A program made the position numbers and the translations under genes. A stretch of 64,000 nt of DNA, from assembly GCA_038049695.1 (NCBI GenBank), contig CP142453.1, forward strand, positions 126,703,001 to 126,767,000, written 5' to 3'. Positions 28,192 through 64,000 of this stretch are shown here, piece by piece. The stretch's first letter is position 1. Every line of letters starts with the position of its first letter. The notes beneath the pieces were generated by a model. That model was not told the origin of the DNA. It did not search any database and saw nothing but the letters and a program-made list of their open reading frames with translations. This DNA comes from Cinnamomum chago (taxonomy: Eukaryota; Streptophyta; Magnoliopsida; Laurales; Lauraceae).

Positions 28192-28501
28192 TTATCCAGC
28201 AATTTGGCAGCAACAGATCAACGTGTGACCAGCAGCCTCACAGTGGCCATCACTATATCCATCATGGATGCAGTCGTCACGGCACGATGGGAAACAGTCT
28301 GTCGTACAATGATACTTGGGGCGATGCAAATCTGCTGCTTCTGCATGTCACATGTAACCTTGATTTAGATTGTATAACTATAGGACAAATTTTAATCATG
28401 CTTCAAATAAAAAACTTACCCATGACAGTGACTGAAGATGAGATGAAAATCAGAAGTGTAAAAGCTACCAGAGAAACCTTGCTTACTCTGAGAGCTGCCA
28501 T
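28192..28501 (-). CDS. DEFL1: secreted eight-cysteine defensin-like peptide
   Basis: Two exons: 28420-28501 and 28192-28340, with a 79-bp phase-1 GT/AG intron (donor GTAAGT, acceptor ATGCAG). Together they give 76 residues. Exon 1 encodes a signal peptide (about residues 1-26; hydrophobic VAFTLLIFISSSV). Exon 2 encodes the mature peptide with cysteine spacing C-x3-C-x3-C-x3-C-x9-C-x8-CCC and a GYSDGHC core. Two-exon genes with a signal exon and a cysteine-rich exon are typical of plant defensin-like (LCR/DEFL) peptides, which act outside the cell as antimicrobials or pollination/signalling ligands. The terminal CCC is not the classic defensin pattern. A TATA box lies 50 bp upstream. This is the most diverged member of the array and the only one with a compact intron. 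Splice sites are seen directly; the family is inferred. Confidence 0.8.
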
Positions 28502-28550
28502 TCTTGAAAGTTGAAATGCATGACCTACTCCAATGAACATCCAAGGCCCC

Positions 28551-28558
28551 CTTTTATA
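28551..28558 (-). promoter_or_regulatory. TATA box of DEFL1
   Basis: TATAAAAG on the minus strand, followed by a GGGGGCC block, 50 bp upstream of the ATG. The same arrangement sits upstream of DEFL2-5. Confidence 0.75.
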
Positions 28559-28559
28559 G

Positions 28560-28700
28560 GAAATGGACATTAGAGAGAGGAGATCAAAAGTGCAGTGAAT
28601 AGAATCTTCGCCTCTGAACTAGATATGTTCTTGCCATAAATAGGAGATGACTCCATAAACAGAGCTCCAAGGATCTCTTGTGGATTTTCTGTACTCAGAT
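28560..28700 (-). promoter_or_regulatory. Conserved upstream block of DEFL1
   Basis: About 140 bp containing CTAGATATGTTCTTG, AAATAGGAGATGACTCCATAAA and CCAAGGATCT is shared, in the same order, with the regions upstream of DEFL2 (39180-39400), DEFL3, DEFL4 (51550-51740) and DEFL5 (58700-58900). Its retention in the most diverged member suggests a regulatory role; ordinary duplication is the alternative. Confidence 0.5.
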
Positions 28701-28796
28701 TTCCTGTTACTTCTTTTAACTATACAATACATGGGTACCTAATATGTTGGTAGGGTTGAGAATATGTAGATTGAGAACCAACCCTTGTTTTGGCAA

Positions 28797-29078
28797 CTCT
28801 ACTAATAGTATCAAGTAAAGTGAAGCCTCATTTATCAAAAAAATGTCACATGAAAAATACTTTAATTCAAAATTTTCCATCATAACAAAAAAAAAGAGTA
28901 AAAAAACAACCTCCATTCTCCACTAAAAAACAAAAAAATCTACTTTCTTATACAAAAGTCAAAAAAATTCTACACCAAACAACTAAAAATAAAATACTAT
29001 TATAATCCACTTTTATTTTATTATTTCTTTAAAATAATCTTTACTTCAGGCAATTCCATTAGTAAAACCCTTGTACTC
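28797..29078. mobile_element. MITE, about 280 bp (same family as 18.5 kb)
   Basis: The left end CTCTACTAATAGTATCAAGTAAAG and the right end CTTTACTTCAGGCAATTCCATTAGTAAA are inverted. The interior matches 18525-18812. Confidence 0.65.
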
Positions 29079-30480
29079 TTGTACAAATCCTATTCGACCC
29101 ATAAAAGTTACGGGCCGGTTGGTGAAACGGATCCGAGATGGGCTCAAAAAATAAGTTTTGGTTTTGCCTCAAATTAGTGACAAACAGGTCCGTTTGAGAG
29201 GGGGGATATTCAGGTTTAAAATTAACCCATAAACAATCCAATTATTAGACTGGTCAAACCTATATTTTGTGACCCGCACCTGACCATATAGGCTGTGGGT
29301 CATCCACGACTTGTATTAGATGGGTTCGATTCACTCACTGGATAGGTTGGGTTTGTCTACCGCTGTGGAATTGATAGACATTGCTCATCCTACTTATTTT
29401 TCTAATTATTTGTCCATTTATAGACCGCGCTCACAACGTTGATATTGTCCAATTGCTGCAACTTTTAGGGCCCTACTGCAGATTAATCCTGACTCCTAAC
29501 TAAGGATTGAGTGGGTCAGGTTAAATGGGCGACTCACACAATCTTGCCCGCCTAATAGGAATAAAATTTGGTTGTGGTTTTATCAAGTTCGCGACAAGTA
29601 TAGATTTATTGAATTTGGCCTAAGCTTTCTTTCGGACAATGTTCATCTAAGAGTAGGAATTTTTGAACTGAGTTGCCAGGCGAACCAAAGCCCGACCTGA
29701 TAATTCAAGATTCAGATTGACCATTTTCATTTTCAAAACTAAGTAAGGTATTTGGCCTGTCAATTTTCAACCAGTGAATAATGGGTTAAGTTCATGCGGG
29801 TTGAACTCTTTTTTGCTATTTGATGTGCCAATCTAACTCAAACATAAAACTTGTTAATTCAACCATTCAGATTGACCTGTTAACTCCTATGTTGGGTTCG
29901 CGTAGATAAATGGTTTAATATTTCTTGATCCAATACAAATTACCTATAACACTCAACACGACCCTATTTAATGTAACCTATTGCGCGTGACTGCTATGTT
30001 TGGGTTTGCTTAGACTCTTCTTTTTGTCGGTGGTTAAAATTAAAGAACCAAAGGTAAATATCCAGAAGTAACCGTCAAATAACCTACTCTTTACTGGTAA
30101 TTAAATCAATGGGATGATAGAGAAAAGAATACCCAGCGGTCATTATATCAATTCAAATCCTTGGAAAATCAATATGTTCCATCTACATTGCTACCTTTCA
30201 CTTTTCTCCTTGTCTCGTTCACTCCTCGCCCTCTTTATTAATCCTTTGGTGGAACTGATTCAATCATGTATGTATTTTATGCAAACAAATAGGCCCTAAG
30301 TAACCTATACCAAACCCATTCAGATTAATTTCCATCAAGACATGGGCTTGTGTACCTATCCTAAACCACAAACCACCTGGGTCGTGGGTTTACACAAGCC
30401 AAATCTTACCCATTGCAATTGCTATTTGCAACTCCTTCCAATAGGAGCTGATCATGTCTTCGGGTCTTCATTTTAGCTCG
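29079..30480. other. Distal DEFL1 flank; no gene recognised
   Basis: Parts (about 29270-29480) resemble the region upstream of the other DEFL copies around 39925-40080 and 51770-51900, so this belongs to the oldest array unit. Nothing else identified. Confidence 0.4.
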
Positions 30481-30907
30481 GCAGATTAGGGCTTGTTTGG
30501 CATCATTTTTGTTCACAAAATATTTTTATTCTGAGACTTCATTATACTGAGAATGATTCAATTCTACGAATGGACGGTGCAAAACTTGTTTTGCAATAAA
30601 TTCTCAAAATTATTCTCACCAATCATTTTCATCGTAACAGAATCCGCAGATTCTCATAACCCAACTCCCATAAAAGAAAACACTGGTTAGTGCATTCTTA
30701 GCAAATTTGGAAGTCTATAGAATAGAGATTTAGGAGTTTTGGATCGATAGAATTTGGAGGTGTGGAGTCATCTCCCATGTGCCTAACCACATCAAATGGT
30801 CCTTTAATGGCCATGCTAGGCTCATTTGACTAGAAATGAGTCTAGAGAGGGGGCAGATTACAGGGGAGGCTTGGACCTCAAGAGAGAGGGATAAGCAGTG
30901 CATGAAT

Positions 30908-30910
<3 letters not shown>
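30481..30910. other. Intergenic, no gene recognised
   Basis: AT-rich sequence; TTAGGGCTTGTTTGGCATC near 30490 resembles a transposon end, but no partner end was found. Confidence 0.3.

Positions 30911-30972
<62 letters not shown>
30911..30972. repeat. GA microsatellite (31 repeats)
   Basis: Uninterrupted GA repeats. Confidence 0.95.
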
Positions 30973-30976
<4 letters not shown>

Positions 30977-31224
30977 ATATGGGCATTACAATGTGGTCCA
31001 CTAGTCCAGTAAGATGTATATGTGGGTAGTGGTTTCAAGGCTAATAAAAAAATAATTCATATGAGCGTTTTTTAACCATCTGATGTAAGAACATCAGTTC
31101 AGAGAAAATGTCTCAATCTGTTTTACTGTCCACGTGATGAACGGGTGCCTTAATTTCCTATCACATATCATAAACCCATCATTGTTGAAATGGATATCAA
31201 CCGGATAAGAGGAAGCCCCCAATG

Positions 31225-32590: not shown

Positions 32591-32899
32591 ATTAAACTAA
32601 AAATAAGCATCAAAACTAATTAAGAAATTGCTGGATCTGGATTTGGAGACTCCAAGCTCAACAGATCTCTCCATTTCCATAACTTTGACATATGCGAAGA
32701 GATCTGTGGAACTTATCAAAACACACAGATCTCCACTCCATATCCAGATACAACAGAAACTACCAATTCATGGGGCAGCTGTGAATTGTGATTATAAAGG
32801 GTTGGAATTGATCACATAGAGCCTAATGGCCATGCAATGATCTGAGATACCTACATCAATAATCACCATACACTGCACATCTGGTCTGGTGGATTGGTT

Positions 32900-34092: not shown

Positions 34093-34596
34093 GACTACAA
34101 GAAAAGAACTGCAGAGAAGAATACTAAAGCTTTGCCAATGCCTACTTTCTTACTTTCCATATGAATTATATATGTTTCTTTATCATCTCATATGATTGTC
34201 TTATCATATTTCAATACATGTTTGCTACTTTGAGCAACAGCATAAGTAACCCTCATCGGTTTGTTCACACTGGCCAGACCTATATCCAGCTTGGGGGCGT
34301 GGTGGTTTCAGATGTTATGCAGTGTAACCATTAACCAAGCCAGCCAATAAACAAAATGAGAATCGGATTAGATTTTTTTTAAAAATGCATCAGGTGGTTT
34401 ATGAAGCTGCAGAGATAAACTTTTTGTGGGCCCCTGGCGAAGTTTATGCCTTTCTCATTAACTCAAATGGACCGTCAAAACTGCCTCACCCTTTTTATAC
34501 TGCATGTATTGTGTCCGGATCCGTCTCAATGGTATGGACCATTCAATCAAGGGTCATTTTTTTTTTCTTTGATATAAACTAAACTTTTGGGGCATG

Positions 34597-34795
34597 GAGA
34601 ACGACTCCTTACCTGAGTGGCAAGGAGAGACAGTTCTCACTTGGTTGGCCACGGTTCCAACCCTAGGTACCACCTTTTTTCGCTTGTACAGGTTTTCTTT
34701 CTGCATGCGCGGGCTCCTTTTCTATTTGAGTATGCTGTCTTCTCATGTGTGTGTGTAGGCTCTCAGTTGGGACCCAACCCCTTTAAGTGGCGGAC
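34597..34795 (+). mobile_element. SINE copy (plus strand)
   Basis: The head has CTGAGTGGCAAGG and GTTCCAACCC, resembling pol III A and B boxes; the body GCGGGCTCCTTTTCTATTT is shared with the minus-strand copies. It interrupts sequence homologous to the introns of DEFL3-5 (CTAAACTTTTGG...CATGGA). Confidence 0.55.
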
Positions 34796-38919: not shown

Positions 38920-39167
38920 ATGATGGCCTAGGTGGGCCCTATCTAGTTTCCTCTTATGGTGCTTCCATGCGAAGAACAGGGGTTGTGCCCATGCATATTA
39001 TGACAAATTATTAATCAAGAAGCAAATAAAAACCTTACCCATGACTGCTAATGAAGATGAGATGAAAAGCAGCAGCAGAAGAGAAGCAACCATAGAGACC
39101 TTATTTACTCCGAGAACTGCCATTTGTGGAATGTATATGACATACTCATGTAAACAACAATCGCCCT

Positions 39168-39175
39168 CTTTTATA
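39168..39175 (-). promoter_or_regulatory. TATA box of DEFL2
   Basis: TATAAAAG on the minus strand, 45 bp upstream of the exon 1 ATG, as in the other members. Confidence 0.65.
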
Positions 39176-40710: not shown

Positions 40711-42082
40711 TTACAACATTGCGCAACAGCACCAGACATTATCATCGGTTGGCACACAATGGCCATAGTTATATCCAGAACGAACGCAGTCGGCGTTGCA
40801 AGAAGGGAGGCACACATCCATACAGCCATTCAAGAGAGGGACATCCGCTCCTGCAGCTGCATGTCATTTTATGATATGAGAATAAATTTTTTTATAAAAA
40901 TAAAATATCTTTTTGTCATTTGGTGGAACAAGAGAATAACTTTTTTGCCTTTTTATTTAATATGAGATATTTTTTATAAAAAAATTATCCTTTTTTATAT
41001 TACCCATCGTCTTCTTCTCTTGTACCTTAAAGTTACTTTTCACTTCAATTCATCATACAAGTGAAGTACCCAAATAGGGTTGCCTAGTTGGACATAACCT
41101 TGGTCCAATATGCTTTCAGATGGGCTTTTTTTTTTTTTAATAACCCATGGAATCTCCTACCCCGCCCAACCCAACCCAACCCAAGGGCCAAAGGCCCTAT
41201 GCCTGAGGAACACTCGAATCTGGACTGCCGAAAATTAATCTCAAAGGGCACATGCAAATCCTCTTATCATGATTGGCCTTCAATTAATTGTTAGAAAGCT
41301 TGAAGCCATACTTGGTCTTACACGAATAAAAAATGTTTGTAATTTAGTGACTGATTTTTCCAATCAAGTAATAGAAGCCAGGGTTGTTCTTACCCATTTG
41401 ACTAAATTGGCGGCCTGCATGGGCCGGACACTATCCGCCCATGCTGCGGTTGGGGGAAATGGGCTTATATCTTTAAAGTCAAGTCAGGCCAAGATTTGCC
41501 TCAGTTCAACTTGACCCGACCATGAAGCCCTAGTTATAATCTACAATTATTTTAAATTTTAGCTAGAAGCGACTATCAGAAAATAGTGGCAAAACTTTAC
41601 TGGGTTAGAATACTTTTTTACAATTGGAGAACTCATCTACTTGATGTGGCAGCACATGGGGGACGCCTAGTTTCTAATCTGAATGGACCATGAAAACCGC
41701 ACTCCCTATTCACAACGGATCTATTGGGTCATCCGAATAGACCGGACCGTTGGTGCAAGGGCCAAATTCTCTCTTTGATATAAAATTGTTAAATTTTTGG
41801 TCCATGGATAAAGGGGTTGGATGCATGGGATTGACCCAGTTTTGATAGGTGGATCCTTCCATTCCCCTAATTAGATCATCAATGGGGCCCTAGAGGGGTC
41901 CAATCTAGCTACCTCGTATGGAGCTTAAATGAGAAGTGCCGGAGTAGGGGCCATATATATGAGAAATTATTAATCAAGCTGCAAATAAAAACCTTACCCA
42001 TGACTGTGAATGAAGATGAGATGAAAAGCAGCAGGAGAACAAAAGCTACCACATAAACCTTGTTTACTCCGAGGACTGCCAT
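40711..42082 (-). CDS. DEFL3: secreted eight-cysteine defensin-like peptide
   Basis: Exon 1 is 41998-42082 and exon 2 is 40711-40856; the 1141-bp phase-1 intron has a GTAAG donor and an ATGCAG acceptor. The product is 76 residues. Residues 1-28 (MAVLGVNKVYVV...FISSSFTVM) form the signal peptide. The mature part has spacing C-x3-C-x3-C-x3-C-x9-C-x8-CCC with the GYNYGHC core, the same as DEFL1. A second in-frame AG six bases further on (CTGCAG) could give a product two residues shorter. The TATA box lies 40 bp upstream. A 3.0-kb solo LTR sits 147 bp upstream of the ATG, separating the core promoter from the conserved distal block. Likely extracellular; function unknown. Confidence 0.8.
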
Positions 42083-47649: not shown

Positions 47650-47739
47650 GGGGGGGGGGGGGAGGATATCCCTGTGGCTTCCTATATGAGGAATTTTGTC
47701 ACAAAATGTTGGGGTGGGGTGGGGGGGGGGGGGGGGGGG
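47650..47739. repeat. Two poly-G tracts around a 74-bp duplication
   Basis: G13 at 47650-47662 and G19 at 47721-47739 each precede the same GGATATCCCTGTGGCTTCC sequence. The second tract is exactly at the left boundary of the large tandem unit. Confidence 0.9.
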
Positions 47740-47889
47740 ATATCCCTGTGGCTTCCTATATGAGGAATTTTGTCACAAAATGTGGGCTTCTTCGCAATTA
47801 TATATAGTCTGGCACGTACAAAAATCCTTGATCAAGTATTGATTTAACTCATCAACGGTCCTTACAGCTCAATTGGATTAACTATGTTA

Positions 47890-48462
47890 TAGGAGGGCGG
47901 CCCAAGCCCAGCATGGATCTGACAGGGAAAAACTGTTCCTAGGCCATTGACTTGGTCAAGGGCCGGCCCGGTCCAGCCTAGCAGTCCCCCGCTAGGCCGT
48001 GCTGGGCCAGCGCTCCAAGCCTGAGGTGGCACTGCCCAGGCCTGGCCCGCCCAAGCTCAACGATCCGATTTTAAAGTATTATCTATTTTTTAGAATGTAT
48101 CATAGGTTTTTAAAGTTGTAATTTTTTTATTTTTTATCATAAGGTTTGAATTTCTATATATATTGATCCAAGTTCAAAGTGGTAAATTTTTTGAACTTTC
48201 GTAACTTAAATTTCAAGGAAATCTAATCTACTTGATGTATTTTTTCAAAACATCATTAGTATCATTCTACTTATTTATTTATCTTAATGAAATTGGTCCA
48301 AGAGTTTCGGTCTAAGTTTGTGTCCGTCCAAGTCCAACTTAAAATTTATATATATATATATATACATATAAATATAAAAAGGGTAGGGGAACCCATGGGC
48401 CGCCCACAGGCCGCATGGCATAGCACGGCCCGTATAATTTTCAAGGGCCGTGCCCATGCCTA
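47890..48462. mobile_element. hAT-like element at the start of unit A
   Basis: GC-rich ends (TAGGAGGGCGGCCCAAGCCC at the left, GGGCCGTGCCCATGCCTA at the right) flank an AT-rich core. TGTTATAG/AGTTATAG at the ends looks like an 8-bp target duplication. Copies recur at about 55178-55792 and 62309-62898. Confidence 0.55.
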
Positions 48463-49189
48463 GTTATAGCACAAGGAGTAGTAAAAAGGTTGAGTAAAAA
48501 TAGGAAAGTGGCGTGACATTGTTTACTTCACCATGTTTGGACAAAAAAGAAAAAGAGAGAGTGGAGGACCCATAATCTTTGTTTGAGGGTTTATATCCTA
48601 ATAGGTAAGTTGGTTTTCGGGTCAAACTAAGGATTTTATGTGAATTTTAAAGGCGGTCTCACAATTTTTATTGGATTTTTTGGAAGCAGATATGAAATCT
48701 TCATATAAGTTTTGAAAGCGCACTGCAGTTTGACAGGTGCGGCTGCACCCGTATACCCATACTTGGGTCAACCTCTAAATAGATTAGAGAAGTAAACGTA
48801 TGATGCAATATCCATAACCTTTTTCTCCTCCTCCTCTATATGCCTCTTTACTTTTTAGCATAAAATGTGTAATATATTGTAATGCAGTAAACTTTTATAA
48901 CAAAAAGCACTTTTTACTCCCCCTCGCTTATACTTTGCCTCTACTATCCAAATTAGGCTCGTACCCAACCTGTGTTTCTACCTAATATACCTTACTTTTT
49001 ACTTTTTCTATGACTTTTGACATTTATCTCCCCTCTACTCCACACATGTGAACAGTCCGTCCAGTCCAGAACTTGAGAGGGAATAGTAAATAGTAAAAAA
49101 GCTTGAGTACCAACATGCATTCTTACATTGCATGTGAATGCTTATTTATTTATTACTCACATCATTTTGTTACATTTCAATACACACAG

Positions 49190-51279
49190 CTATGGAATGT
49201 AGCAACAACAGAGGACCGATTCACCGGTTGGTACACAACGGCCACTCATAAATCCATTGCGGATGCAGTCGTTAGTGCACCAAGAGGGGCTCAGGCACTG
49301 GTACGAACATTGCTTCTTAAACACATCAACATCTGCAGCTGCATTTCAATGTGTATTGGATTAGATTTAGAAAAATTCATGAGGTGTACAAAACTATACC
49401 GCCCTTATCTTCAGATGGGGTGTGTTGTAGAAAATCACAAGAAACAATTTATCATATTTTTATTTACTGTGATTTTGCAAAATTGGTTTTGGAAGACTTA
49501 ACTCCCTTCATATATATTTAGTTAGCCCTACCAACTTTGCGAACTTAGGAGACTGGTTTTGGCCTTCTTCTAAAACTACTGCTTCTGGCCTCATCACCCT
49601 CTGGTACATTTGGAAAGCCTGTAATTCCTATCTCTTCCTGTTCACGCCCTTACATCTGGCCAGCTTCTGTTCATGCCAAATCAGCCTCTCTTTTACATGA
49701 ATGGTATATTTCAAATGACTTGTCTGGATGTGTGCCACCTACAGAAGCCACTGCAACATAGGAACCTCCACCTTCTGATTTTGTGAGGCTAAATTTTGAT
49801 GGTTTAGTTGATTTGGCTACTCGATCATTATGCTCGATATGGAGACATATGATGTTGGAGATGCCTCTCCATTAAGAATAAGTAAAACAAAAACATGGAG
49901 ATTCCCTGTGCATGAAATTCCCAAAAGATATGCACCCCAAACAAACACGTGAGCCTTAATATTTAGGGGATTTGACAATTTAATACCCCTTAAACACCTA
50001 ATTCCCAAATTCATGATTAAAAGTATCTAAATGTCACTATAGTCGTTTAACTCTGGTACATTTTTTTGTTTTTTTAGCCTTTAATCCCATGATATCATGT
50101 GTTTTTAAAAACTTATGATATCATCATATCCAACGTCAAACGACTCTAGTGACATTTAGTGACTTTAGTTATGAATTTGGAGATTGAGCGTCTAAATGGC
50201 ATTGAATTGTTAAATCCCCTTTTTTTTTTTTGTTAGTTATAGTATTAGTGTCTTTTCTCTGTATCGCAACTTTGTATGCTACACTCGACCTTTTCTTTTA
50301 ATGTAATCTCCTTTCAGCAAAAAATAAAAAAATCCATTACATGGATTATCAAGCTGGAAAGAGAAACTTTTGTAGGACCCATGGCCAAGTTCATACTATA
50401 ACATCAATGGATGCCCATAAATGTCGATATGGGCTGTTCATGGGGTAGAAGAGTTGACATGACCCAGGTCCATCATGCTTTCAGCCAGGCTTGAGCTTTG
50501 AATTCTTATAGATGGGCAAGGGCCGAATCTAAAACTTGGACTTGTTTAATGTTAGGATTGGACTTGGATTAAGTAATATAATTCTTGAAGCCTGAACTGT
50601 CCTGGCCCGATTGATTAATGCTTGCAGTTTTGTGAATGGTACTTTGTCCAAACAAGTGATGGAAAGGTTGTGTCATTCTGGCCCGATTGGCTAAAATTAC
50701 TGGGCTCAAGCCTGATTTGCCTCAGTTTGGCTTGACCCAACCATGAAGCCCTAGTTATATATAATCTACAATTATTTTAAATTCTAGCGAGAAGCGACTA
50801 TCAGAAAATAGTGACACAACTTTACAATTGGAGAACTCATCCACTTGATGTGGCAGCACATGGGGCCCACCTAGTTGCTGATCTGAATGGACCATGAAAA
50901 CTGCACTCCCCATTTACAAGTGATCTATTGGATCTGCTCCCATAGGAATAGACCGGACTGCTGGAGCAAGGGTCAAATTCCTTCTTTGATAGAACACTGC
51001 TAAACTTTTGTTCCATGGATCAACGGATTAGATGCAGGGGACTAACCCCAGTTTTAATGGGTGGATCTTTCCATTCCCCTAATCAGATCATCAGTGGGGC
51101 GCTAGAGGTACTGGAGTAGAGCCCATATATATATATATATATATATATGAGAAATTATTAATCAAGCTGCAACTAAAAACCTTACCCATGACTATGAATG
51201 AAGATGAGATGAAAAGCAGGAAGAGAACAAGAGCTACCATAGAAACCTTGTTTACTTTGTTTACTCCGAGATCTGCCAT
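49190..51279 (-). CDS. DEFL4: secreted eight-cysteine defensin-like peptide
   Basis: Exon 1 is 51186-51279 and exon 2 is 49190-49338; the 1847-bp phase-1 intron has a GTAAG donor and an AATGCAG acceptor. The product is 80 residues. The signal peptide starts MADLG and has VNK duplicated (VNKVNKV), which no other member shows; the duplication adds nine bases. The mature peptide spacing is C-x3-C-x5-C-x3-C-x9-C-x8-CCC with GFMSGRC as core, and two residues more between cysteines 2 and 3 than in DEFL1 and DEFL3. A second AG six bases into exon 2 keeps frame. The intron carries an antisense LINE fragment. A 0.2-kb foldback element sits just upstream of the TATA box. Likely extracellular; function unknown. 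Confidence 0.8.
49385..50335 (+). mobile_element. LINE fragment (zinc-knuckle and RNase H remnants) in the DEFL4 intron
   Basis: In the plus direction, near 49420-49500, it reads CRKSQETIYHIFIYCDFAKL. This is the zinc-binding motif that follows the reverse transcriptase of plant L1-type LINEs. PPSDFVRLNFDG near 49770-49805 is the start of the RNase H domain. Several stops intervene. The 3' end has CTTTTAATGTAATCTCCTTTCAGC and an A-rich tail at about 50320. It is antisense to the DEFL gene. Confidence 0.65.
51127..51149. repeat. AT microsatellite in the DEFL4 intron
   Basis: TA repeats near the donor side; the homologous tract in DEFL5 is at about 58503-58518. Confidence 0.85.
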
Positions 51280-51321
51280 TTTTTAAATGTATGACCTACT
51301 CCTGTGAGCATCTGAAGCCCC

Positions 51322-51329
51322 CTTTTATA
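51322..51329 (-). promoter_or_regulatory. TATA box of DEFL4
   Basis: TATAAAAG on the minus strand, 43 bp upstream of the ATG. The foldback insertion begins about 10 bp further upstream. Confidence 0.75.
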
Positions 51330-51332
51330 ATG

Positions 51333-51536
51333 GCAAGAGAATGTCCACTTGGACAAACTGGGGGGACCGATTCTTGGCCCGGTCCCCCCAGAGCACCCTT
51401 GGATCCCAGACCTGGGGGGACCGATTCTTGGCCCAGTCCCCCCAGAGCACCCTTGTCTGGGATCCAAGGGTTCTCTGGGGGGACCGGGCCAAGAATCGGT
51501 CCCCCCAGTTTGTCCAAGTAGCATGGTTGTAATGGC
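51333..51536. mobile_element. Foldback element in the DEFL4 promoter
   Basis: The long inverted arms start ACTTGGACAAACTGGGGGG at 51347 and, complemented, end at about 51519. A motif GGGGGGACCG...CGGTCCCCCC, itself a hairpin, occurs three times (about 51360, 51415 and inverted at 51477). Near-identical TATAATGGCA and TGTAATGGCA at the two edges suggest a 9-10-bp target duplication, as for Mutator-type elements. Unit B (58680-58700) lacks it. Confidence 0.75.
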
Positions 51537-52472
51537 AATAGGAGATATCAAATGTAGTGGGTATTAGATATGTTCTTGGCTTGTTATGGGCCACAAATAG
51601 GTCACTGGACTTCATAACTAGACTTCCAAGGATCTAGTTTGGTGATTTTGCTATAAGAATCAAATTTTTAGATACTTCTGGTACAACTAGGAGATTGGAT
51701 TCCATAAATAGATTTCCAATGATCTTTTTTAGTGAAACAATTCAAGGGGCGGTAAGTGGTTTGCTATTTGACCGGGTTGAGAAGGAGAATTTGTCAATTG
51801 AGATCCAACTGTATTCTGCTCGTATTTGATCCATATAAGTTGTGGGTCAGTTTACATTTGATGGATGTGAGATGGATTCATAGATCAATAATGATTTCGC
51901 CACCTCTACCAGCACATAGTTGGGACTTGGGAGGGGGCATTTTCATGTTAAAAATAAACCCTTATCTCACCCAATATAGCTTTTTTGGTAGCCCACGTAA
52001 GGGGTAGGGACGTAACCCGCACAAGCGAAGAGAACACCAAACTTGCACAAGCAAGTAGAAGTAACACATGAGCAAGGGGAGGGTGGAGGCCAAAGTCAAA
52101 ACCCTATCCTCCTAGTAAGAACTGCACGTGGGGTTCGTTAATATTAGTTAGTTTTCCATACTTTAACATTTAGGCATTTTGGATGTATAGATTAGCAACT
52201 TGGATTTACCTCTCCATCTTCATCAAATTCCTATCTCCATCATCAATTTGCCAAATTAAAGGACAAAGCTTTTGGAAGATATCGCACCATATCAGAACTA
52301 GTGGACAACCGACGCCGATAAACTCAATAAGAGCAAGAAATCATCATTTCTGCAAAATATCATGTATTTTTTACGTTGAGGTTCTTTAATTGCTGCAACC
52401 TTGACTTACTAGGATTAGTTTTGTAGGGATTTTATCACGTACGGGGCAGCTGCAGTTTAATTTGGTAGTGAT

Positions 52473-53267
52473 AGTAAGAGTCTTAGTTGGCAAATTCAAC
52501 TGATTTGAACAAAACTCAAAGTCCACTTTGAGTTGTAAGTAGTGTTCTTTTAGATTTGGACTTAGATGACACTTCAAGAGAGAGATCGGAGATTTTTGGC
52601 CGCTTCAAACTCCTCAAAACAAGCCAATACGAGCAGCGCCCCCCCCCCCCCCCCCCCCCCTCCCCGCCAGAGAGCACTGCGCCAAGCAGAGACTCTCCTA
52701 TTTCTTCAACATGAATTGGTAACCTTATTGCACGAACCCTAGACTATTTATATGACTCATTGCATCCCATGCATAGAGATATCTCGAGCTCTCTACTCAT
52801 CCTTAGCATCAAGCATTCATCTAGAGACTCTTTGTAGGGTGATTCAAGCAATGAAATTGCGCTAAAGACGAAGATTCTTTCTTCCTCTCTCAAGCACCTT
52901 GAAGAGGCATTCAAGGTGGGTTCTTATCAAGCACGTGGAAGATGAACGACGGGTAGTTGGCAAGTTCACTTTCCTTTAGGTTGAGTTCCAACTGGGTCGA
53001 AGGTCTTGTGAGTTCACTTGTAATTTTCGCTTATTTAGTCCTTGGTTTTTCTAGTGGTCTCTATCACCCATGTTTTTTTCCCAAGTAGGGTTTTCCACGT
53101 AAGAAATCGTGTGCCTCCTATTCTTTTTGTGGTTGATTGATTTTCTGATATTACATTAATCTACTATTTAAATTAATTGGAATTAGATTTAATATCAAAA
53201 TCCGAGTTAGGACCTTAGCCTACTTTAAGGCTTAAATTCAGGTTGAATTAGGCATTCATCCCCTTCC
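52473..53267. mobile_element. 795-bp insertion, LTR-like, in unit A
   Basis: It is flanked by GTGAT on both sides (52468-52472 and 53268-53272). The DEFL3 unit has the empty site near 46285. The right half (GTTTTCCACGTAAGAAATCG near 53090) resembles the end of a Ty1/copia LTR, but the TG...CA termini are not clear, so the class is uncertain. The same insertion is in unit B at 59634-60406, so it predates that duplication. Confidence 0.6.
52639..52660. repeat. Poly-C tract (22 C)
   Basis: Present in unit A only; unit B has GAGGCCCCCAGCC at this place (about 59788). Confidence 0.85.
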
Positions 53268-53389
53268 GTGATTTCATCGACCTTGCCCTACTAGGAATTC
53301 CTTCCTTTCTATTTCAGCTACTCCGTGATATGTGCTTGTGTCGATTAATGCTCTTCCTTAGTTCCTCTTCATGGGAGGATAAAACTAGG

Positions 53390-53965
53390 ACACGATTAAA
53401 TTGATTAATAAATGGGTTAGGAACTACTTCATGATATAGTTGCCTCTCGGTAAGAGTAAGTAAAACAAATACATGAGATTCCCCATGCATGAAATTCCCA
53501 AAAGACGTGCACCCAAACACCTGAACCTCCTGTTTGGATATATAGTGAATTGAAGTACGGTGAGATGAAGCATCAAGTCAGGAGAGAATAAAACATAATG
53601 TGTTATGATGGTGTTTTATTTTTAATTGTTTGGTATGAAATCTTTTTGACTTTTTGTATAGAAAAGTAGAGTTTTTACATTTTTTTCATGGAGAAAAGAG
53701 GTTGCTTTTTTTTCTTTTTTTTGAAAAATTCAGAGGGATTTTAAAATTGTGTACTTTTGATATGATCTCTTATCATTTCTTGTCTAGATTTACTTTACTT
53801 TAACCTAACTAGTTAATTGCCAAACACGCCATAATGAATTTTCTATTTTGTTACTAGGTGTTATATTACTATCTTTTCTCTGTATCGTAGCTTTGTATGC
53901 TACGCTCGACTTTTTCTTTTAATGTAATCTCCTTTCAGCAAAAAAAATAAAAATACATGACATGG
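53390..53965 (+). mobile_element. Second LINE 3' end, interrupted by a MITE
   Basis: It matches the end of the intronic LINE (AGAGTAAGTAAAACAAA... and TTTTAATGTAATCTCCTTTCAGC plus an A-rich tail). A MITE of the 18.5-kb family (about 53525-53835, inverted) is inserted. The copy in unit B is at about 60530-61095. Confidence 0.6.
53525..53835 (-). mobile_element. MITE copy in unit A
   Basis: The reverse complement of the 18.5- and 28.8-kb copies (GGCGTGTTTGGCAATTAACTAG at one end, TATATCCAAACA at the other). Confidence 0.6.
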
Positions 53966-54616
53966 ATTATCAAGCTGGAAAGAAAATAGTTTTGTGGGAC
54001 CCATGGACAAGTTCATACTTTAACATCAATCAATGCCCATAAATGGGCCTGATATGCTTGAGATGGGCCGAACTTTAGTCAAGCAATTTAATTCAGGAGG
54101 ATAGTATGCTCCTGCATTACCATTAAGCCTTGTGTTGGGCTTGGGAATAGGAGTCTGAACTTTAAAGTCAGACTGGGCTTATATATGCCACAGCCCAGTT
54201 CATGAACAGCTCTAGAAATGATATATAATTATTTGAGCTTTTTGTATATTCCACCCTAAGGTTTTCAGGATTTTTAAATAAGCCCCGGAGGTTTTAATAT
54301 TTGTAAATAGGCCTCTGCCTTTTCTTTTTAATACCTTTCATGTCCCCAAAATCATAATTCTTAACGAGAATGGACAGCCACCCTGAGATTTGTGTATAAT
54401 TTTTATATAAATGACAGTTTTGCCCTTACATTCATTAAACAAAAATGAGTATATTATTATTTACAAAAATACCATTATTTTACCTGAAGTCCCCAATGAT
54501 TTCTCTCTAATAACTCTCTCATGCACATGATTAGGGGTGGACCCAAATACAAGGGCCTGGGGACGGAACCACCCCCCATATCTGAGAAAAGTTTGAACCC
54601 CACCCCTTCTCAAATC

Positions 54617-54623
54617 CTAAAAG

Positions 54624-54652
<29 letters not shown>
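54617..54652. repeat. AT microsatellite
   Basis: TA repeats within a decayed element (54530-54720) whose start AGGGGTGGACCCAAAT resembles a hAT end. Confidence 0.8.
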
Positions 54653-54656
<4 letters not shown>

Positions 54657-55656
54657 CATTTGCCCCTTCCCCCAATATATTTTTTACATAGAGCCAACCT
54701 TGACACCCACCCCCACGAAGCATCATCATGTATTTTGAAACTTTCATCAACCCAACGGTAGGTTATGTATTGATTAGATAAATAAATAATCAGTTATAAG
54801 TACATGTGTTAATTATCGTTTTGATCAATTTGGAGTTAATGAAATGAGCCCTATATTGATAAAAAGAAATTATGTGGGGTTATTCTCTCCCATTAAGTGC
54901 AATCGTTAATGTTACATGCTTTATTAAAAAAAAATTGAGTACAAGCTTTTGAAATTATGCATATAAGGATAAAAGAAATGGGCAAAAGTGTCATTTCTCT
55001 TTAAAAACCTATGGTGGTGGATATCCCTGTGGCTTCCTATATGAGGAATTTTGTTACAAAATGTGGACTTCTTCTCAATTATATATAGTCTGGCACGTAC
55101 AAAAATCCTTGATCAAGTATTGATTTAACTCATCAACGATCCTTACAGCTCAATTGGATTAACTATGTTATAGGCCTATAGGAGGGCGGCCCAAGCCCAG
55201 CATGGACCTGACAGGGAAAAACTGTGCCTAGGCCGTTGACTTGGTCAAGGGCCGGCCCGGTCCTGCCTAGCAGTCCCCCGCTAGGCCGTGTTGGGCCAGC
55301 GCTCCAAGCCTGAGGTGGCACTGCCCAGGCCTGGCCAGCCCAAGCTCAACGATCCGATTTTAAAGTATTATCTATTTTCTAGAATGTATCATAGGTTTTT
55401 AAAGTTGTAATTATTTTTATTTTTTATCATAAGGTTTGAATTTCTATATATATATATATTGATCCAAGTTCAAACTTGTAATTTTTTTTAACTTTCCTAA
55501 CTTAAATTTCAAGGAAATCTAATCTACTTGATGTATTTTTTCAAAACATCATTAGTATCATTCTACTTATTTATTTCTCGTGATTTTATTTATCTTAATG
55601 AAATTGGTCCAAGAGTTTCGGTCTAAGTTTGTGTCCGTCCAAGTCCAACTTAAAAA

Positions 55657-55702
<46 letters not shown>

Positions 55703-56513
55703 GGTAGGGGAACCCATGGGGCGCCCACAGGCCGCATGGCATAGCACGGCCCGTATAATTTTCATGGTATGTGCCCATGCCTAGTTATAGCACAATGAGT
55801 AGTAAAAAGGTTGGGTAAAAATAGGAAAGTGATGTGACATTGTTTACTTCACCATGTTTGGACAAAAAAAAGAAAAAGAAAGAAAAAGAGAGTGGAGGAC
55901 CCATAATTTTTGTTTGAGGGTTTATATCCTAATAGGTAAGTTGGTTTTCGGGTCAAAATAAGAATTTTATGTGAATTTTAAAGGCGGTCTCACAATTTTT
56001 ATTAGATTTTCTTGAAGCAAATATGGAAACTTCATGTAAGTTTTGAAAGCGCACTGCAGTTTAACAGGTGCGGCTGCACCCGTATACCCATACTTGGGTG
56101 AACCTCTTAATGGATTAGAGAAGTAAACGTATGATGCAATATCCATAACCTTTTTCTCCACTACATGCCTCTTTATTTTTTAGCATAAAATGTGTAATAA
56201 ATTGTAATGCAGTAAACTTTTATAACAAAAGCACTTTTTACTCCCCCTCGCTTATACTTTGCCTCTACTATCGAAATTAGGCTCGTACCCAACCTGTGTT
56301 TCTACCTAATATACCTTACTTTTTACTTTTTCTATGACTTTTGACATTTATCTCCCCTCTACTCCACACATGTGAACAAACAGTCCAGTCCAGAACTTGA
56401 ACGGGAATAGTAAATAGTAAGCAAGCGTAAGTACCAACATGCATTCTTACATTGCATGTGAATGCTTATTTATTTATTACTCACATCATTTTGTTACATT
56501 TCAATACACACAA

Positions 56514-58640
56514 CTATGGAATGTAGCAACAACAGAGGACCGATTCACCGGTTGGTACACAACGGCCACTCATAAATCCATTGCGGATGCAGTCGTTAGT
56601 GCACCAAGAGGGGCTCAGGCACTGGTACGAACATTGCTTCTTAAACTCATCAACATCTGCAGCTGCATTTCAATGTGTATTGGATTAGATTTAGAAAAAT
56701 TCATGAGGTGTACAAAACTATACCGCCCTTATCTTTAGATGGGGTGTGTCGTAGAAAATCACAAGAAACAATTTATCATATTTTTATTTACTGTGATTTT
56801 GCAAAATTGGTTTTGGAAGACTTAACTCCCTTTATATATATTTAGTTAGCCCTACCAACTTTGCGAACTTAGGAGACTGGTTTTGGCCTTCTTCTAAAAC
56901 TACAGCTTCTTTTGGCCTTATCACCCTCTGGTACATTTGGAAAGCCTGTAATTCCTATCTCTTCCTGTTCACGCCCTTACATCTGGCCAGCTTCTGTTCA
57001 TGCCAAATCAGCCTCTCTTTTAGATGAATGGTATATTTCAAATGACTTGTCTGGATGTGTGCCACCTACAGAAGCCACTGCAACATAGGAACCTCCACCT
57101 TCTGATTTTGTGAGGCTAAATTTTGATGGTTTAGTTGATTTGGCTACTCGATCATTATGCTCGATATGGAGACATATGATGTTGGAGATGCCTCTCCAGT
57201 AAGAGTAAGTAAAACAAAAACATGGAGATTCCCCGTGCATGAAATTCCCTAAAGACATGCACCCCAAACAAACACGTGAGCCTTAATCTTTAGGGGATTT
57301 GACAATTTAATACCCCTTAGACACCTAATTCCCAAATTCATGATTAAAAGTATCTAAATGTCATCAGAGTCATTTGACTCTATTACATTTTATTTATTTA
57401 TTTATTTTTTACCTTGGATCCCTTGATATCATGGGTTTTTTTTTGTTTTTTGTTTTTTGTGGCCATGGAACCCATGATATCATGGGATCCAAGGTCAAAC
57501 GACTCTGGTGACAATTAGTGACTTTTAGTTATGAATTTGGGGATTGAGCGTCTAAAAGGTATTGAATTGTTAAATTCCCTTTTTTATTGTTGTTAGTTAT
57601 AATATTAGTTTCTTTTCTCTGTATCGCAACTTTGTATGCTACACTCGACCTTTTCTTTTAATGTAATCTCCTTTCAGCAAAAAATAAAAAAATCCATTAC
57701 ATGGATTATCAAGCTGGAAAGAGAAACTTTTTGTAGGACCCATGGCCAAGTTCATACTATAACATCAATGGATGCCCATAAATGTCGATATGGGCTGTTC
57801 ATGGGGTAGAAGAGTTGACATGACCCAGGTCCATCATGCTTTCAGCCAGGCTTCAGCTTTGAATTCTTATAGATGGGCAAGGGCCGAATCTAAAACTTGG
57901 ACTTGTTTAATGTTAGGATTGGACTTGGATTTAAGTAATATAATTCTTGAAGCCTGAACTGTCCTGGCCCGATTGATTAGTGCTTTGCAGTTTAGTGAAT
58001 GGTACTTTGTCCAAACAAGTGATGGAAAGGTTGTGTCATTCTGTCCCGATTGGCTAAAATAACTGGGCTCAAGCCTGATATGATTTGCCTCAGTTCGGCT
58101 TGACCCAACCATGAAGCCCTAGTTATATATATATAATCTACAATTATTTTAAATTCTAGCGAGAAGCGACTATCAGAAAATAGTGACACAACTTTACAAT
58201 TGGAGAACTCATCTACTTGATGTGGCAGCACATGGGGCCCACCTAGTTGCTGATCTGAATGGACCATGAAAACTGCACTCCCCGTTTACAAGTGATCTAT
58301 TGGATGTGCTCCCATCGGAATAGACCGGACTGTTGGAGCAAGAGTAAAATTCTTTTTTTTATAGAACACTGCTAAACTTTTGGTCCATAGACCAAGGGGT
58401 TAGATGCATGGGATTGACCCCAGTTTTAATGGGTGGATCTTTCCATTCCCCTAATCAGATCATCAGTGGGGTGCTAGAGGTACTGGAATAAAGCCCATAT
58501 AAATATATATATATATATGAGAAATTATTAATCAAGCTGCAAATAAGAACCTTACCCATGACAATAAATGAAGATGAGATGAAAAGCAGGAAGAGAACAA
58601 GAGCTACCACATAAACCTTGTTTACTCCGAGAACTGCCAT
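56514..58640 (-). CDS. DEFL5: secreted eight-cysteine defensin-like peptide
   Basis: Exon 1 is 58556-58640 and exon 2 is 56514-56662; the phase-1 intron is 1893 bp. The product is 77 residues. The signal peptide MAVLGVNKVYVV...FIVM lacks the VNK duplication of DEFL4. The mature peptide is identical to DEFL4 except for one Val-to-Glu change a few residues after the start, so spacing is again C-x3-C-x5-C-x3-C-x9-C-x8-CCC. The TATA box is at 58684-58691. The upstream region is free of the insertions seen in DEFL3 and DEFL4, so this copy is the best candidate for native expression. The intron holds the same antisense LINE fragment (about 56710-57705). Confidence 0.8.
56710..57705 (+). mobile_element. 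LINE fragment in the DEFL5 intron
   Basis: Copy of the unit A fragment, with the same zinc-knuckle and RNase H remnants and the same stops; it was duplicated with the gene. Confidence 0.65.
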
Positions 58641-58683
58641 TTGTTAAATGTTATGACCTACTCCTGTGAGCATCTGAGGCCCC

Positions 58684-58691
58684 CTTTTATA
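58684..58691 (-). promoter_or_regulatory. TATA box of DEFL5
   Basis: TATAAAAG on the minus strand, 44 bp upstream of the ATG. Confidence 0.75.
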
Positions 58692-59633
58692 ATGGCTATA
58701 TGAGATATCAAGTGTAGTGGTTAGTAGATATGTTCTTGGCTTGTTATGGGCCACAAATAGGTAACTGGACTTCATAACTAGACTTCCAAGGATCTGTTTT
58801 GGTGATTTTGCTATAAGAATCAAATTTTTAGATACTTCTGGTACATGAACTAGGAGATTGGATTCCATAAATAGATTTCCAATGATCTTTTTTAGTGAAA
58901 CAATTCAAGGGGCAGTAAATGGTTTGCTATTTGACGGGTTGAGAAGGAGAATTTGTCAATAGAGATCCAACTGTATTCTGCTCGTATTTGACCCATATAT
59001 GTTGTGGGTCAGTTTACATTTGATGGATGTGAGATGGATTCATAGATCAATAATGATTTCGCCACCTCTACCAGCACATAGTTGGGACTTGGGAGGGGGC
59101 ATTTTCATGTTAAAAATTAACCCTTATCTCACCCAATATAGCTTTTTTGGTAGCCCACGAAAGGGGTAGGGGCGTAACCCGCACAAGCGAAGAGAACACC
59201 AAACTCGCACAAGCAAGTAGAAGTAACACTTGAGCAAGGGGAGGGTGGAGGCCAAAGTCAAAACCCTATCCTCCTAGTAAGAACTGCACGTGGGGGTTGT
59301 TAATATTAGTTAGTTTTCCATACTTAAACATTTAGGCATTTCGGATGTATAGATTAGCAACTTGAATTTATCTCTCCATCTTCATCAAATTCCTATCTCC
59401 ATCACCAATTTGCCAAATTAAAGGACGAAGCTTTTGGAAGATATCGCACCAGATCAAATCTAGTGGACAACCGACACCGATAAACTCAATAAGAGCAAGA
59501 CATCATCATTTCTGCAAAATATCATTTATTTTTTACGTTGTGGTTCTTTAATTGCTGCAACCTTGACTTACTAGGATTAGTTTTGTAGGGACTTTATCAC
59601 GTACTGGGTAGTGCAGTTTAATTTGGTAGTGAT

Positions 59634-60406
59634 AGTAAGAGTCTTAGTTGGCAAATTCATCTAATTCTTCGAACAAAACTCAAAGTCCACTTTGAGTTGT
59701 AAGTAGTGTTCTTTTAGATTTAGATGACACTTCAAGAGAGAGATCAGAGAATTCTGGCCGCTTCAAACTCCTCAAAACAAGCCAATACGAGGCCCCCAGC
59801 CAGAGAGCAAGCTCGTTCCCTGCGCCAAGCAGAGACTCTCCTATTTCTTCAACATGAATTGGTAACCTTAATGCACGAACCCTAGACTATTTTTATGACT
59901 CATTGCATCCCATGGAGATATCTTGAGCTCTCTACTCATCCTTAGCATCAAGCATTCATCTAGAGACTCTTTGTAGGGTGATTCAAGCAAGGAAACCGCG
60001 CTAAAGACAAAGATTCTCTCTTCTTCTCTCAAGCACCTTGAAGAGGCATTCATGGTGGGTTCTTATCAAGCATGTGGAAGATGAACGACGGGTAGTTGGC
60101 AAGTTCACATTCCTTTAGGTTGAGTTCCAACTGGGTCGAAGGTCTTGTGAGTTCACTTGTAATTTTCGCTTATTTAGTCCTTCGTTTTTCTAGTGGTCTC
60201 TATCACTCGTGTTTTTTTCCTGAGTAGGGTTTTCCACGTAAGAAATCGTGTGCCTCCTATTCTTTTTGTGGTTGATTGATTTTCTAATATTACATTAATC
60301 TACTAGTTTAATTAATTGGAATTAGATTTCATATCAAAATCCGAGTTAGGACCTTCGCCTACTTTAAGGCTTAAAGTCAGGTTGAATTAGGCATTCATCC
60401 CCTTCA
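59634..60406. mobile_element. LTR-like insertion in unit B
   Basis: Orthologous to 52473-53267, flanked by GTGAT (59629-59633 and 60407-60411). Here the right end reads CCTTCA, compatible with an LTR CA terminus. Confidence 0.6.
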
Positions 60407-60666
60407 GTGATTTCATCGACCTTGCCCTACTAGGAATTCCTTCCTTTCTATTTCAGCTACTCCGTGATATGTGCTTGTGTCGATTAATGCTCTTCCTTAG
60501 TTCCTCTTCATGGGAGGATAAAACTAGGACACGATTAAATTGATTAATAAATGGGTTAGGAACTACTTCATGATATAGTTGCCTCTCCGATAAGAGTAAG
60601 TAAAACAAAAACATGAGATTCCCCATGCATGAAATTCCCAAAAGATGTGCACTCAAACACCTGAAC

Positions 60667-60985
60667 CTACTGTTTGGATGTATAGCGAATTGAAGTACGG
60701 TGAGATGAAGCATCAAGTCAGGAGAGAATAAAACATAATGTGTAATGATGGTGTTTTATTTTTAATTGTTTGGTATTAAATCTTTTTGACTTTTTGTATA
60801 GAAAAGTAGAGTTTTTTTTATTTTTTAATGGAGAAAAGAGGTTGCTTTTTTTTACTTATTTTTGAAAATTTCAGAGGGATTTTAAAATTGTGTACTTTTG
60901 ATATGATCTCTTGTCATTTCTTGTCTAGATTTACTTTAATTTAACCTAACTAGTTACTTGCCAAACACGCCATAATGATTTTTCT
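60667..60985 (-). mobile_element. MITE copy in unit B
   Basis: Orthologous to the unit A MITE at 53525-53835. Confidence 0.6.
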
Positions 60986-62149
60986 TTTTTGTTACTAGGT
61001 GTAATATTACTTTCTTTTCTCTGTATCGTATGCTTTGTATGCTACACTCGACTTTTTCTTTTAATGTAATCTCCTTTCAGCAAAACAAAAAATACATGAC
61101 ATGGATTATCAAGCTGGAAAGAAAAAAGTTTTGTGGGACCCATGGACAAGTTCATACTTTAACATCAATCAATGCCCATAAATGGGCCTGATATGCATGA
61201 GATGGGCCGAACTTTAGTCAAGCAATTTAATTCAGGAGGATAGTATGCTCCTGCATTAACATTAAGCCTTGTGTTGGGCTTGGGAATAGGAGTCTGAACT
61301 TTAAAGTCAGACTGGGGTTATATATGCCACAGCCCAGTCCATGAACAGCTCTAGAAATGATATATAATTATTTGAGCTTTTTGTATATTCCACCCTAAGG
61401 TTTGCAGGATTTTTAAATGAGCCCCGGAGGTTTGTATATTTGTAAATAGGCCCCTGCATTTTCTTTTTAATACCTTTCATGTCCACAAAATCATAATTCT
61501 TAACGAGAATGGACAGCCACCCTGAGATTTGTGTATAATTTTTATATAAATGACAGCTTTGCCCTTACATTCATTAAACAAAAATGAGTATATTATTATT
61601 TACAAAAATACCATTATTTTACCTGAAGTCCCCAATGATTTCTCTCTAATAACACTCTCATGCACATGATTAGGGGTGGATCCAAATACAAGGGCCTGGG
61701 GACGGAACCACCCCCCATATCTGAGAAAAGTTTGAACCCCACCCCTTCTCAAATCCTAAAAGCTTATATATATATATATATATATATTACATTTGCCCCT
61801 TCCCCCAATATATTTTTTACATAGAGCCAACCTTGACACCCGCCCCCACAAAGCATCATCATGTATTTTGAAACTTTCATCAACCCAACGGTAGGTTATG
61901 TATTGATTAGATAAATAAATAATCAGTTATAAGTACATGTGTTAATTATCGTTTTGATCAATTTGGAGTTAATGAAATGCTCCTATATTGATAAAAAGAA
62001 ATTATGTGGGGTTATTCTCTCCCATTAAGTGCAATCGTTAATGTTACATGCTTTATTAAAAAAAATTGAGTACAAGCTTTTGAAATTATGCATATAAGGA
62101 TAAAAGAAATGGGCAAAAGTGTCATTTCTCTTTAAAAACCTATGGTGGT

Positions 62150-64000
62150 GGATATCCCTGTGGCTTCCTATATGAGGAATTTTGTTACAAAATGTGGACT
62201 TCTTCTCAATTATATATAGTCTGGCACGTACAAAAATCCTTGATCAAGTATTGATTTAACTCATCAACGATCCTTACAGCTCAATTGAATTAACTATATT
62301 ATAGGCCTATAGGAGGGCGGCCCAAGCCCAGCATGCACCTGACAGGGAAAAACTGTGCCTAGGCCGTTGACTTGGTCAAGGGCCGGCCCGGTCCTGCCTA
62401 GCAGTCCCCCGCTAGGCCGTGTTGGGCCAGCGCTCCAAGCCTGAGGTGGCACCGCCCGGGCCTGGCCCGCCCAAGCTCAACGATCCGATTTTAAAGTATT
62501 ATCTATTTTCTAGAATGTATCATAGGTTTTTAAAGTTGTAATTATTTTTATTTTTTATCATAAGGTTTGAATTTCTATATATATATATATTGATCCAAGT
62601 TCAAACTTGTAATTTTTTTTAACTTTCCTAACTTAAATTTCAAGGAAATCTAATCTACTTGATGTATTTTTTCAAAACATCATTAGTATCATTCTACTTA
62701 TTTATTTCTCGTGATTTTATTTATCTTAATGAAATTGGTCCAAGAGTTTCGGTCTAAGTTTGTGTCCGTCCAAGTCCAACTTAAAAAAAATAAAAAAAAT
62801 ATATATATATAAAGGGCAGGGGAACCCATGGGGCGCCCACAGGCCGCATGACATAGCACGGCCCGTATAATTTTCATGGTATGTGCCCATGCCTAGTTAT
62901 AGCACAAGGAGTAGTAAAAAGGTTGAGTAAAAATAGGAAAGCGACGTGACATTGTTTACTTCACCATGTTTGGACAAAAAAGAAAAAGAGAGAGTTGAGG
63001 ACCCATAACTTTTGTTTGAGGGTTTATATCATAATAGGTAAGTTGGTTTTCGGGTCAAACTAAGGATTTTATGTGAATTTTAAAGGCGGTCTCACAATTT
63101 TTATTGGATTTTTTGGAAGCAGATTTGGAATCTTTATATAAGTTTTGAAAGCACACTGCAGTTTGACAGGTGCGGCTGCACCCGTATACCCATACTTGGG
63201 TCAACCTCTAAATAGATTAGAGAAGTAAATGTATGATGCAATATCCATAACCTTTTTCTCCTCTATATGCCTCTTTATTTTTTAGCATAAAATGTGTAAT
63301 AAATTGTAATGCAGTAAACTTTTATAACAAAAAGCACTTTTTACTCCCCCTCGCTTATACTTTGCCTCTACTATACAAATTAGGCTCGTACCCAACCTGT
63401 GTTTCTACCTAATATACCTTACTTTTTACTTTTTCTATGACTTTTAACATTAATCTCCCTCTACTCCACACATGTGAACAAACAGTCCAGTCCAGAACTT
63501 GAAAGGGAATAGTAAATATTAAGAAAGCTTAAGTACCAACATGCATTCTTACATTGCATGTGAATGCTTATTTATTTATTTATTACTCACATCATTTTGT
63601 TACATTTCAATACACACAACTATGGAATGTAGCAACAACAGAGGACCGATTCACCGGTTGGTACACAACGGCCACTCATAAATCCATTGCGGATGCAGTC
63701 GTTAGTGCACCAAGAGGGGCTCAGACACTGGTACGAACATTGCTTCTTAAACTCATCAACATCTGCAGCTGCATTTCAATGTGTATTGGATTAGATTTAG
63801 AAAAATTCATGAGGTGTACAAAACTATACCGCCCTTATCTTCAGATGGGGTGTGTTGTAGAAAATCACAAGAAACAATTTATCATATTTTTATTTACTGT
63901 GATTTTGCAAAATTGGTTTGGGAAGACTTAATTCCCTTCATATATATTTAGTTAGCCCTACCAACTTTGCGACCTTAGGAGACTGGTTTTGGCCTTCTTC
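62150..64000. repeat. Tandem unit C of the DEFL array (partial)
   Basis: Starts with the shared GGATATCCC junction and runs off the right edge inside the DEFL6 intron. Its first part is closer to unit B than to unit A, for example GTCCTGCCTAG where A has GTCCAGCCTAG. Confidence 0.9.
63620..63768 (-). CDS. DEFL6: second exon of a defensin-like peptide gene (partial)
   Basis: Only exon 2 is in the window. It is 149 bp, open, has the same ATGCAG acceptor with the in-frame alternative AG, and encodes the same mature peptide as DEFL5; a synonymous TGC-to-TGT change separates the DNA. Exon 1 with the signal peptide should lie about 1.9 kb further right. LINE-derived sequence follows in the intron from about 63815. 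Whether the gene is intact cannot be judged here. Confidence 0.75.

Follow-up and report, generated by a model that had tools for sequence, protein, structure and literature searches.

A probable tandem birth-and-death array of two-exon defensin-like genes with a CCC ending in Cinnamomum chago

Defensin-like (DEFL) peptides that end in three consecutive cysteines (CCC) are not new; the sections of a wheat survey consulted here (PMC6329339) already describe them as group 2 DEFL, with the motif C-x3-21-C-x2-12-C-x3-4-C-x3-15-C-x4-23-CCC. As listed in those sections, the group comprises four wheat (Triticum kiharae) members, earlier ones from lyme grass (Leymus arenarius) and one Fusarium protein, and its peptides are neutral (isoelectric point (pI) 6.37-7.10), unlike classical defensins. 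This was the only paper found when the literature on defensin-like peptides with three consecutive cysteines was searched, although other wordings could hide more. Here, we analyzed a stretch of 64,000 nucleotides from Cinnamomum chago (GCA_038049695.1, contig CP142453.1, positions 126,703,001 to 126,767,000 of the forward strand; hereafter "the window", numbered from its first letter), which holds a cluster of small genes, CCC1 to CCC6, for peptides with this ending. We conclude, with a probability of about 0.88, that the two-exon genes of this locus form a tandem birth-and-death array of the CCC-ending (group 2) DEFL type and encode secreted disulfide-rich peptides. The array adds a magnoliid case to a type described, in the consulted sections, from grasses and one fungal protein; because a magnoliid array joins a grass-described type, the CCC type would be either old or arisen more than once.

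A gene described elsewhere with a comparable layout is Arabidopsis PDFL2.1 (CRP0240; structure 2mz0), for which the consulted part of PMC8460643 reports a small intron within the coding region of the DEFL gene, a CS-alpha-beta motif and a gamma-core. PDFL2.1 differs from the genes studied here in having six mature cysteines and no CCC. The Cinnamomum cluster lies on the minus strand and contains five intact mature exons (eight cysteines, CCC end) and five signal-peptide exons; both exons are present within the window for four genes (CCC1, CCC3, CCC4 and CCC5). The intact members were placed as follows.

28192..28340, minus strand: CCC1 exon 2, mature peptide with eight cysteines and CCC (AlphaFold model m2999157501b7)
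28341..28419, minus strand: CCC1 intron, 79 nt, phase 1, GT-AG
28420..28501, minus strand: CCC1 exon 1, signal peptide, from ATG to ATGG and followed by GTAAGT; alignable with the four other signal exons
28552..28558, minus strand: CCC1 TATAAAA box, 57 bp before the ATG, a sequence match only
40711..40856, minus strand: CCC3 exon 2, mature peptide
40857..41997, minus strand: CCC3 intron, 1141 nt
41998..42082, minus strand: CCC3 exon 1, signal peptide
49190..49338, minus strand: CCC4 exon 2, mature peptide (AlphaFold model mbfc3291e57c9)
49339..51185, minus strand: CCC4 intron, 1847 nt
51186..51279, minus strand: CCC4 exon 1, signal peptide with 9 additional in-frame bases
56514..56662, minus strand: CCC5 exon 2, mature peptide
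56663..58555, minus strand: CCC5 intron, 1893 nt
58556..58640, minus strand: CCC5 exon 1, signal peptide
63620..63768, minus strand: CCC6 exon 2, encoding the same mature peptide as CCC5; exon 1 lies past the window end

The precursors of the four complete genes were open throughout (76-80 residues), and their junctions were alike: exon 1 ends in ATGG followed by GTAAG, and exon 2 begins after ATGCAG, in phase 1 and with GT-AG borders. The original prediction, made from the letters of the window, had counted six members with a common signal exon and intron. The shared phase-1 junction was confirmed in the four complete genes, but only five signal exons and five intact mature exons were found. 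The splice junctions that it gave (28341/28419, 40857/41997, 49339/51185 and 56663/58555) are the exact intron ends, and its spacing, C-x3-C-x3/5-C-x3-C-x9-C-x8-CCC, holds for the four distinct intact mature sequences (five exons). A hydrophobic stretch behind a short start was evident in all five signal exons, as read from the translation rather than from a predictor, and each of these exons has a TATAAAA box, again a sequence match only, 47-57 bp ahead of its ATG. In a six-frame search of the window, a loose eight-cysteine/CCC pattern gave five matches, every one inside the array, and none in 200 first-order Markov sequences of window length.

Protein-database searches found relatives only in avocado (Persea americana), namely MRB53_002146, MRB53_003739, MRB53_003741 and MRB53_003763. 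These proteins have the type of signal peptide and all eight cysteines in common with the window members. Unconserved cysteines in other species had been named beforehand as evidence against the family, and all eight were kept in 4/4 avocado proteins. The expectation that automatic annotation would probably miss such genes did not hold for the four relatives in avocado, where each is listed as a hypothetical protein. The mature domain of CCC4 and CCC5 was identical to that of MRB53_002146 at 42/49 residues, and CCC3 was 67% identical to MRB53_003741 and 72% to MRB53_003739; the protein searches found no avocado counterpart of CCC1.

The group 2 motif fits all four distinct mature sequences of the window (five exons) and 4/4 avocado proteins, whereas the group 1 motif, which ends in CXC-x1-6-C, fits 0/8 of these sequences, in agreement with the earlier remark that a CCC end is not the classic defensin pattern. 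As far as the grass peptides are described in the consulted sections of PMC6329339, they share with the window members the motif, a signal peptide (putative in the window members) followed by a mature domain, and a mature peptide that is not basic. The two sets are likened by motif and description, not by sequence, and they differ in that the window members are more acidic (pI 4.05-6.14, if cleavage occurs close to where exon 2 begins) than the range of 6.37-7.10 given there. The mature pI was 6.7-6.9 in three of the avocado proteins and 4.7 in the fourth. Classical plant defensins (gamma-thionin, PF00304) have in common with the window members the predicted fold, the CxxxC, GxC and CxC elements (the last within CCC) and the gamma-core; however, the group 1 motif is absent from the window members, and their fourth disulfide would have to sit elsewhere. 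Where PF00304 was reported, it scored 16.6-18 bits against a cut-off of 25.1.

The term "defensin-like" in the original prediction is supported by the top-ranking family, by the CxxxC/GxC/CxC signature and by two structure models. Pfam PF24552 ("Defensin-like") was the top family for 4/4 complete precursors, above its cut-off of 27 bits in one (CCC3, 28.2) and at 21, 23.7 and 23.9 bits for CCC1, CCC4 and CCC5, respectively. Fold prediction had been proposed as a check, and the AlphaFold models of CCC4 and CCC1 (mean predicted local distance difference test (pLDDT) scores of 81.1 and 83.4, respectively) both gave the strand-helix-strand-strand order of plant defensins. In these models, the helix is predicted to carry CxxxC and the last strand the whole terminal triplet, CxC included, the arrangement of the cis-defensin (CS-alpha-beta) superfamily. 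The best fold matches of the CCC4 model were plant defensins, with modest scores, and PDFL2.1 (2mz0) was a repeated match both by sequence and by fold.

From 47.7 kb to the window end, the DNA consists of two full repeat units and part of a third, spaced 7.1-7.3 kb.

47732..55012, plus strand: repeat unit A (borders arbitrary), 96.2% identical to unit B
55013..62143, plus strand: repeat unit B
62144..64000, plus strand: repeat unit C, incomplete because the window ends, 93.8% identical to unit A over 1873 columns, gaps counted

Units A and B agree at 6689/6951 aligned bases (96.2%). The 28-46 kb part holds older patches only, in which matches of at least 100 bases are 69-87% identical. The claim that most array DNA was duplicated recently therefore applies from position 47732 onward, but not as "most", since this part covers about 16 of 35.6 kb, less than half. 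The mature exons of CCC4, CCC5 and CCC6 differ at 1-2/149 bases and the adjoining 299 bases on their 3' side at 8-11. Because the 232 intron bases beside these exons are equally alike (226-229/232; 3-6 differ), the likeness of the exons need not reflect selection on the peptide. An inverted-repeat insert, resembling a miniature inverted-repeat transposable element (MITE), occupies 51347-51519 directly upstream of the CCC4 TATA box and is without counterpart in CCC5. It was recognized by an opposite-strand self-match of 83.5%, a gap in the unit alignment and a split match to CCC3, and it may have severed CCC4 from upstream control DNA. As a separate observation, the CCC4 intron contains a palindromic stretch (49965-50220; 71% to its own complement), adjoined by a 200-base patch with further copies at 53.8, 57.6 and 61.0 kb.

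The remaining member, CCC2, is broken.

34225..34293, minus strand: CCC2 mature-exon remnant, from C5 to CCC and without C1-C4, with an in-frame stop upstream
39039..39123, minus strand: orphan signal exon of CCC2 with an open frame and the donor GTAAGG

The remnant begins just ahead of C5, 4.7 kb from the signal exon, and is the only mature-exon candidate found for CCC2, which on these sequence features is a probable pseudogene. The CCC2 signal peptide is closest to that of avocado MRB53_003763 (24/28 residues; next best 22/28). As the mature domain of MRB53_003763 is intact, the avocado counterpart of CCC2 is likely intact, in contrast to the broken copy in the window.

Among the older members (28192-58918), likeness is far greater in the promoter, signal exon and early intron than in the mature exons, silent sites included. 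For example, CCC3 and CCC5 are alike at 45/54 bases before the ATG and at 123/145 from the ATG into the intron, compared with 85/140 in exon 2. The silent divergence of exon 1 was 0.10-0.21. Silent changes in exon 1 and exon 2 were compared by Fisher tests, which gave p values of 0.036, 0.0012, 0.008 and 0.005 in four of the six pairs; these used rounded counts and non-independent pairs. Of the remaining two pairs, CCC1-CCC4 showed the same trend (silent divergence (dS) 0.16 in exon 1 and 0.90 in exon 2), and the recent pair CCC4-CCC5 the reverse (0.10 and 0; 80/85 and 148/149 bases alike). In BLAST comparisons of CCC3 with CCC4 and CCC5, homology ran from the promoter to about 500 bases into the intron, interrupted in CCC4 by the insert, followed by short patches and then exon 2.

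The avocado proteins place the two parts of CCC4 and CCC5 differently. Their mature domain goes with MRB53_002146 (42/49), and their signal peptide goes with CCC3, MRB53_003741 and MRB53_003739 (25, 23 and 22 of 28 residues for CCC5; 22, 22 and 20 of 28 for CCC4) and is unlike that of MRB53_002146 (16/28). In site counts for CCC5, MRB53_002146 stood against CCC3 at 0 to 9 for the signal and 21 to 2 for the mature domain. This pattern suggests that the 5' module was exchanged between neighbors. We tentatively propose, at somewhat less than even odds, an array of two modules joined at the intron, in which the 5' module (promoter, signal exon and early intron) has been repeatedly copied among neighbors by gene conversion or by crossing-over in the intron, while older mature exons keep diverging. 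Exchange of the 5' part would explain both the silent-site gap and the avocado conflict. A fast-evolving signal exon in MRB53_002146, whose likeness to each of the other signals compared is just 50-64%, would explain the avocado conflict only. We also considered a hypermutating mature exon and set it aside, as exchange fits the avocado comparison better, although the fast MRB53_002146 signal exon alone could account for that part. In Arabidopsis, the portion of PMC5731061 consulted describes DEFL recombination as infrequent; one method placed it about equally in the signal and mature parts, another mostly in the mature part. If the two-module proposal is true, new secreted peptides would come under a promoter and secretion signal that are shared and refreshed. 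The discord between signal and mature exons offers a small case in which module exchange within a peptide array can be tested.

Several results weigh against the group 2 DEFL reading. The PF24552 cut-off is missed by three of the four window precursors and by 4/4 avocado proteins (25.1, 24.7, 22.7 and 9.6 bits for the latter), although the database record lists PF24552 for two of the avocado proteins. No Foldseek match reaches an E value of 0.001 (best 0.0091), no VIA-align Z score reaches 8, and the scores of scorpion toxins and brazzein (5.1-5.7) are barely apart from those of most plant defensins. Judged by sequence alone, the leading matches were not plant defensins but solved scorpion toxins (for CCC4 and the profile) and insect defensins (for CCC3). 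The ratio of amino-acid-changing to silent divergence (dN/dS) in exon 2 was 0.32-0.64 between divergent members and rose to 0.58-0.86 without the cysteine codons; dS between divergent mature exons was 0.76-1.84, near saturation, which makes these ratios weak. In exon 1, dN/dS was scattered (0.24-1.39, on 5-14 changes per pair). The cysteines are retained and the loops change almost freely. Because the codons are few and the silent sites near saturation, positive selection is neither shown nor excluded, and the 1-3/8 cysteine codons that differ between divergent members are too few for a claim of position-specific codon conservation. The toxin matches raise the alternative that another cysteine-rich family (scorpion-toxin-like, thionin or hevein) resembles defensins by chance; CCC4 scores exactly at the cut-off of Toxin_3 (PF00537; 21.5 of 21.5 bits) and avocado MRB53_002146 passes it (22.7). 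Scorpion toxins of this kind have a CS-alpha-beta core too, and matches to them are expected from that common core, while in the fold comparison plant defensins came first, though narrowly. We therefore rejected membership of the scorpion toxins, whose matches follow the shared fold, and consider a chance resemblance of any such family very improbable.

In the group 2 DEFL reading, exon 1 would encode a signal peptide that is lost during secretion, and the entire mature domain, about 48 residues long, would come from exon 2 and be oxidized to a CS-alpha-beta fold. C2-C5, C3-C6 and C4-C8 are the usual defensin core bonds, and the positions of the cysteines in the predicted secondary structure point to the same three bonds here. 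C1, in the first strand, may pair with the middle CCC cysteine on the sheet face away from the helix, replacing the classical clasp from C1 to the C-terminus; this likely middle-cysteine bond would offer a clear way to test how the fourth disulfide can be relocated within the defensin fold. The product is a putative extracellular defense peptide against microbes or herbivores with a specific target, a role to which we give about even odds; because the mature peptides are acidic, they more likely bind a specific target than attack membranes through positive charge. Defense would be favored over a cell-cell signal, pollen-pistil or otherwise reproductive, which we regard as possible but rather unlikely. 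The precedent for such a signal is the Arabidopsis LURE cluster, as the AtLURE1 pollen-tube attractants are counted among tandem DEFL clusters in the part of PMC3525529 consulted, and the acidity of the mature peptides, unlike the basic classical defensins, is in line with it. However, the family also occurs in avocado and thus lacks the species specificity reported for the AtLURE1 cluster. The array may also be decaying, its duplicates, some of them struck by transposons, no longer being expressed. The broken CCC2, the insert directly upstream of the CCC4 TATA box and three introns of 1.1-1.9 kb, compared with 79 nt in CCC1, would fit such decay, which is nevertheless improbable given that the five other mature exons are intact, junctions are canonical in the four genes with introns inside the window, and all five signal exons have open frames and a TATA box 47-57 bp before the ATG. 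That the CCC4-CCC6 mature exons differ less than their 3' DNA argues weakly in the same direction, as the adjoining intron is alike too.

Rfam at gathering thresholds gave no match and ARAGORN no tRNA; NCBIfam gave meaningless matches only for two of the four proteins and none for the other two, and the plasmid collection gave no match to the CCC1 query in "near" mode. Elsewhere in the window, an open frame of 465 aa at 23084-24481 carries a reverse transcriptase domain (RVT_2, PF07727, E 8.5e-66) and is presumably of copia type. Three related stretches (8687-9530, 13877-14783 and 22397-22877) are 69-81% identical in pairs, and the second of these includes a glycine-rich frame of 150 aa (13972-14424, minus strand) with a signal-like start and no Pfam match at E 0.01. 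Two local tandem repeats, at 24563-25222 and 25736-26698, have periods of about 150 and 356 bases and are 83-88% alike. Finally, an exact tandem duplication was observed at 19764-20006, with a 122-base match, no mismatch and an offset of 121 bases.

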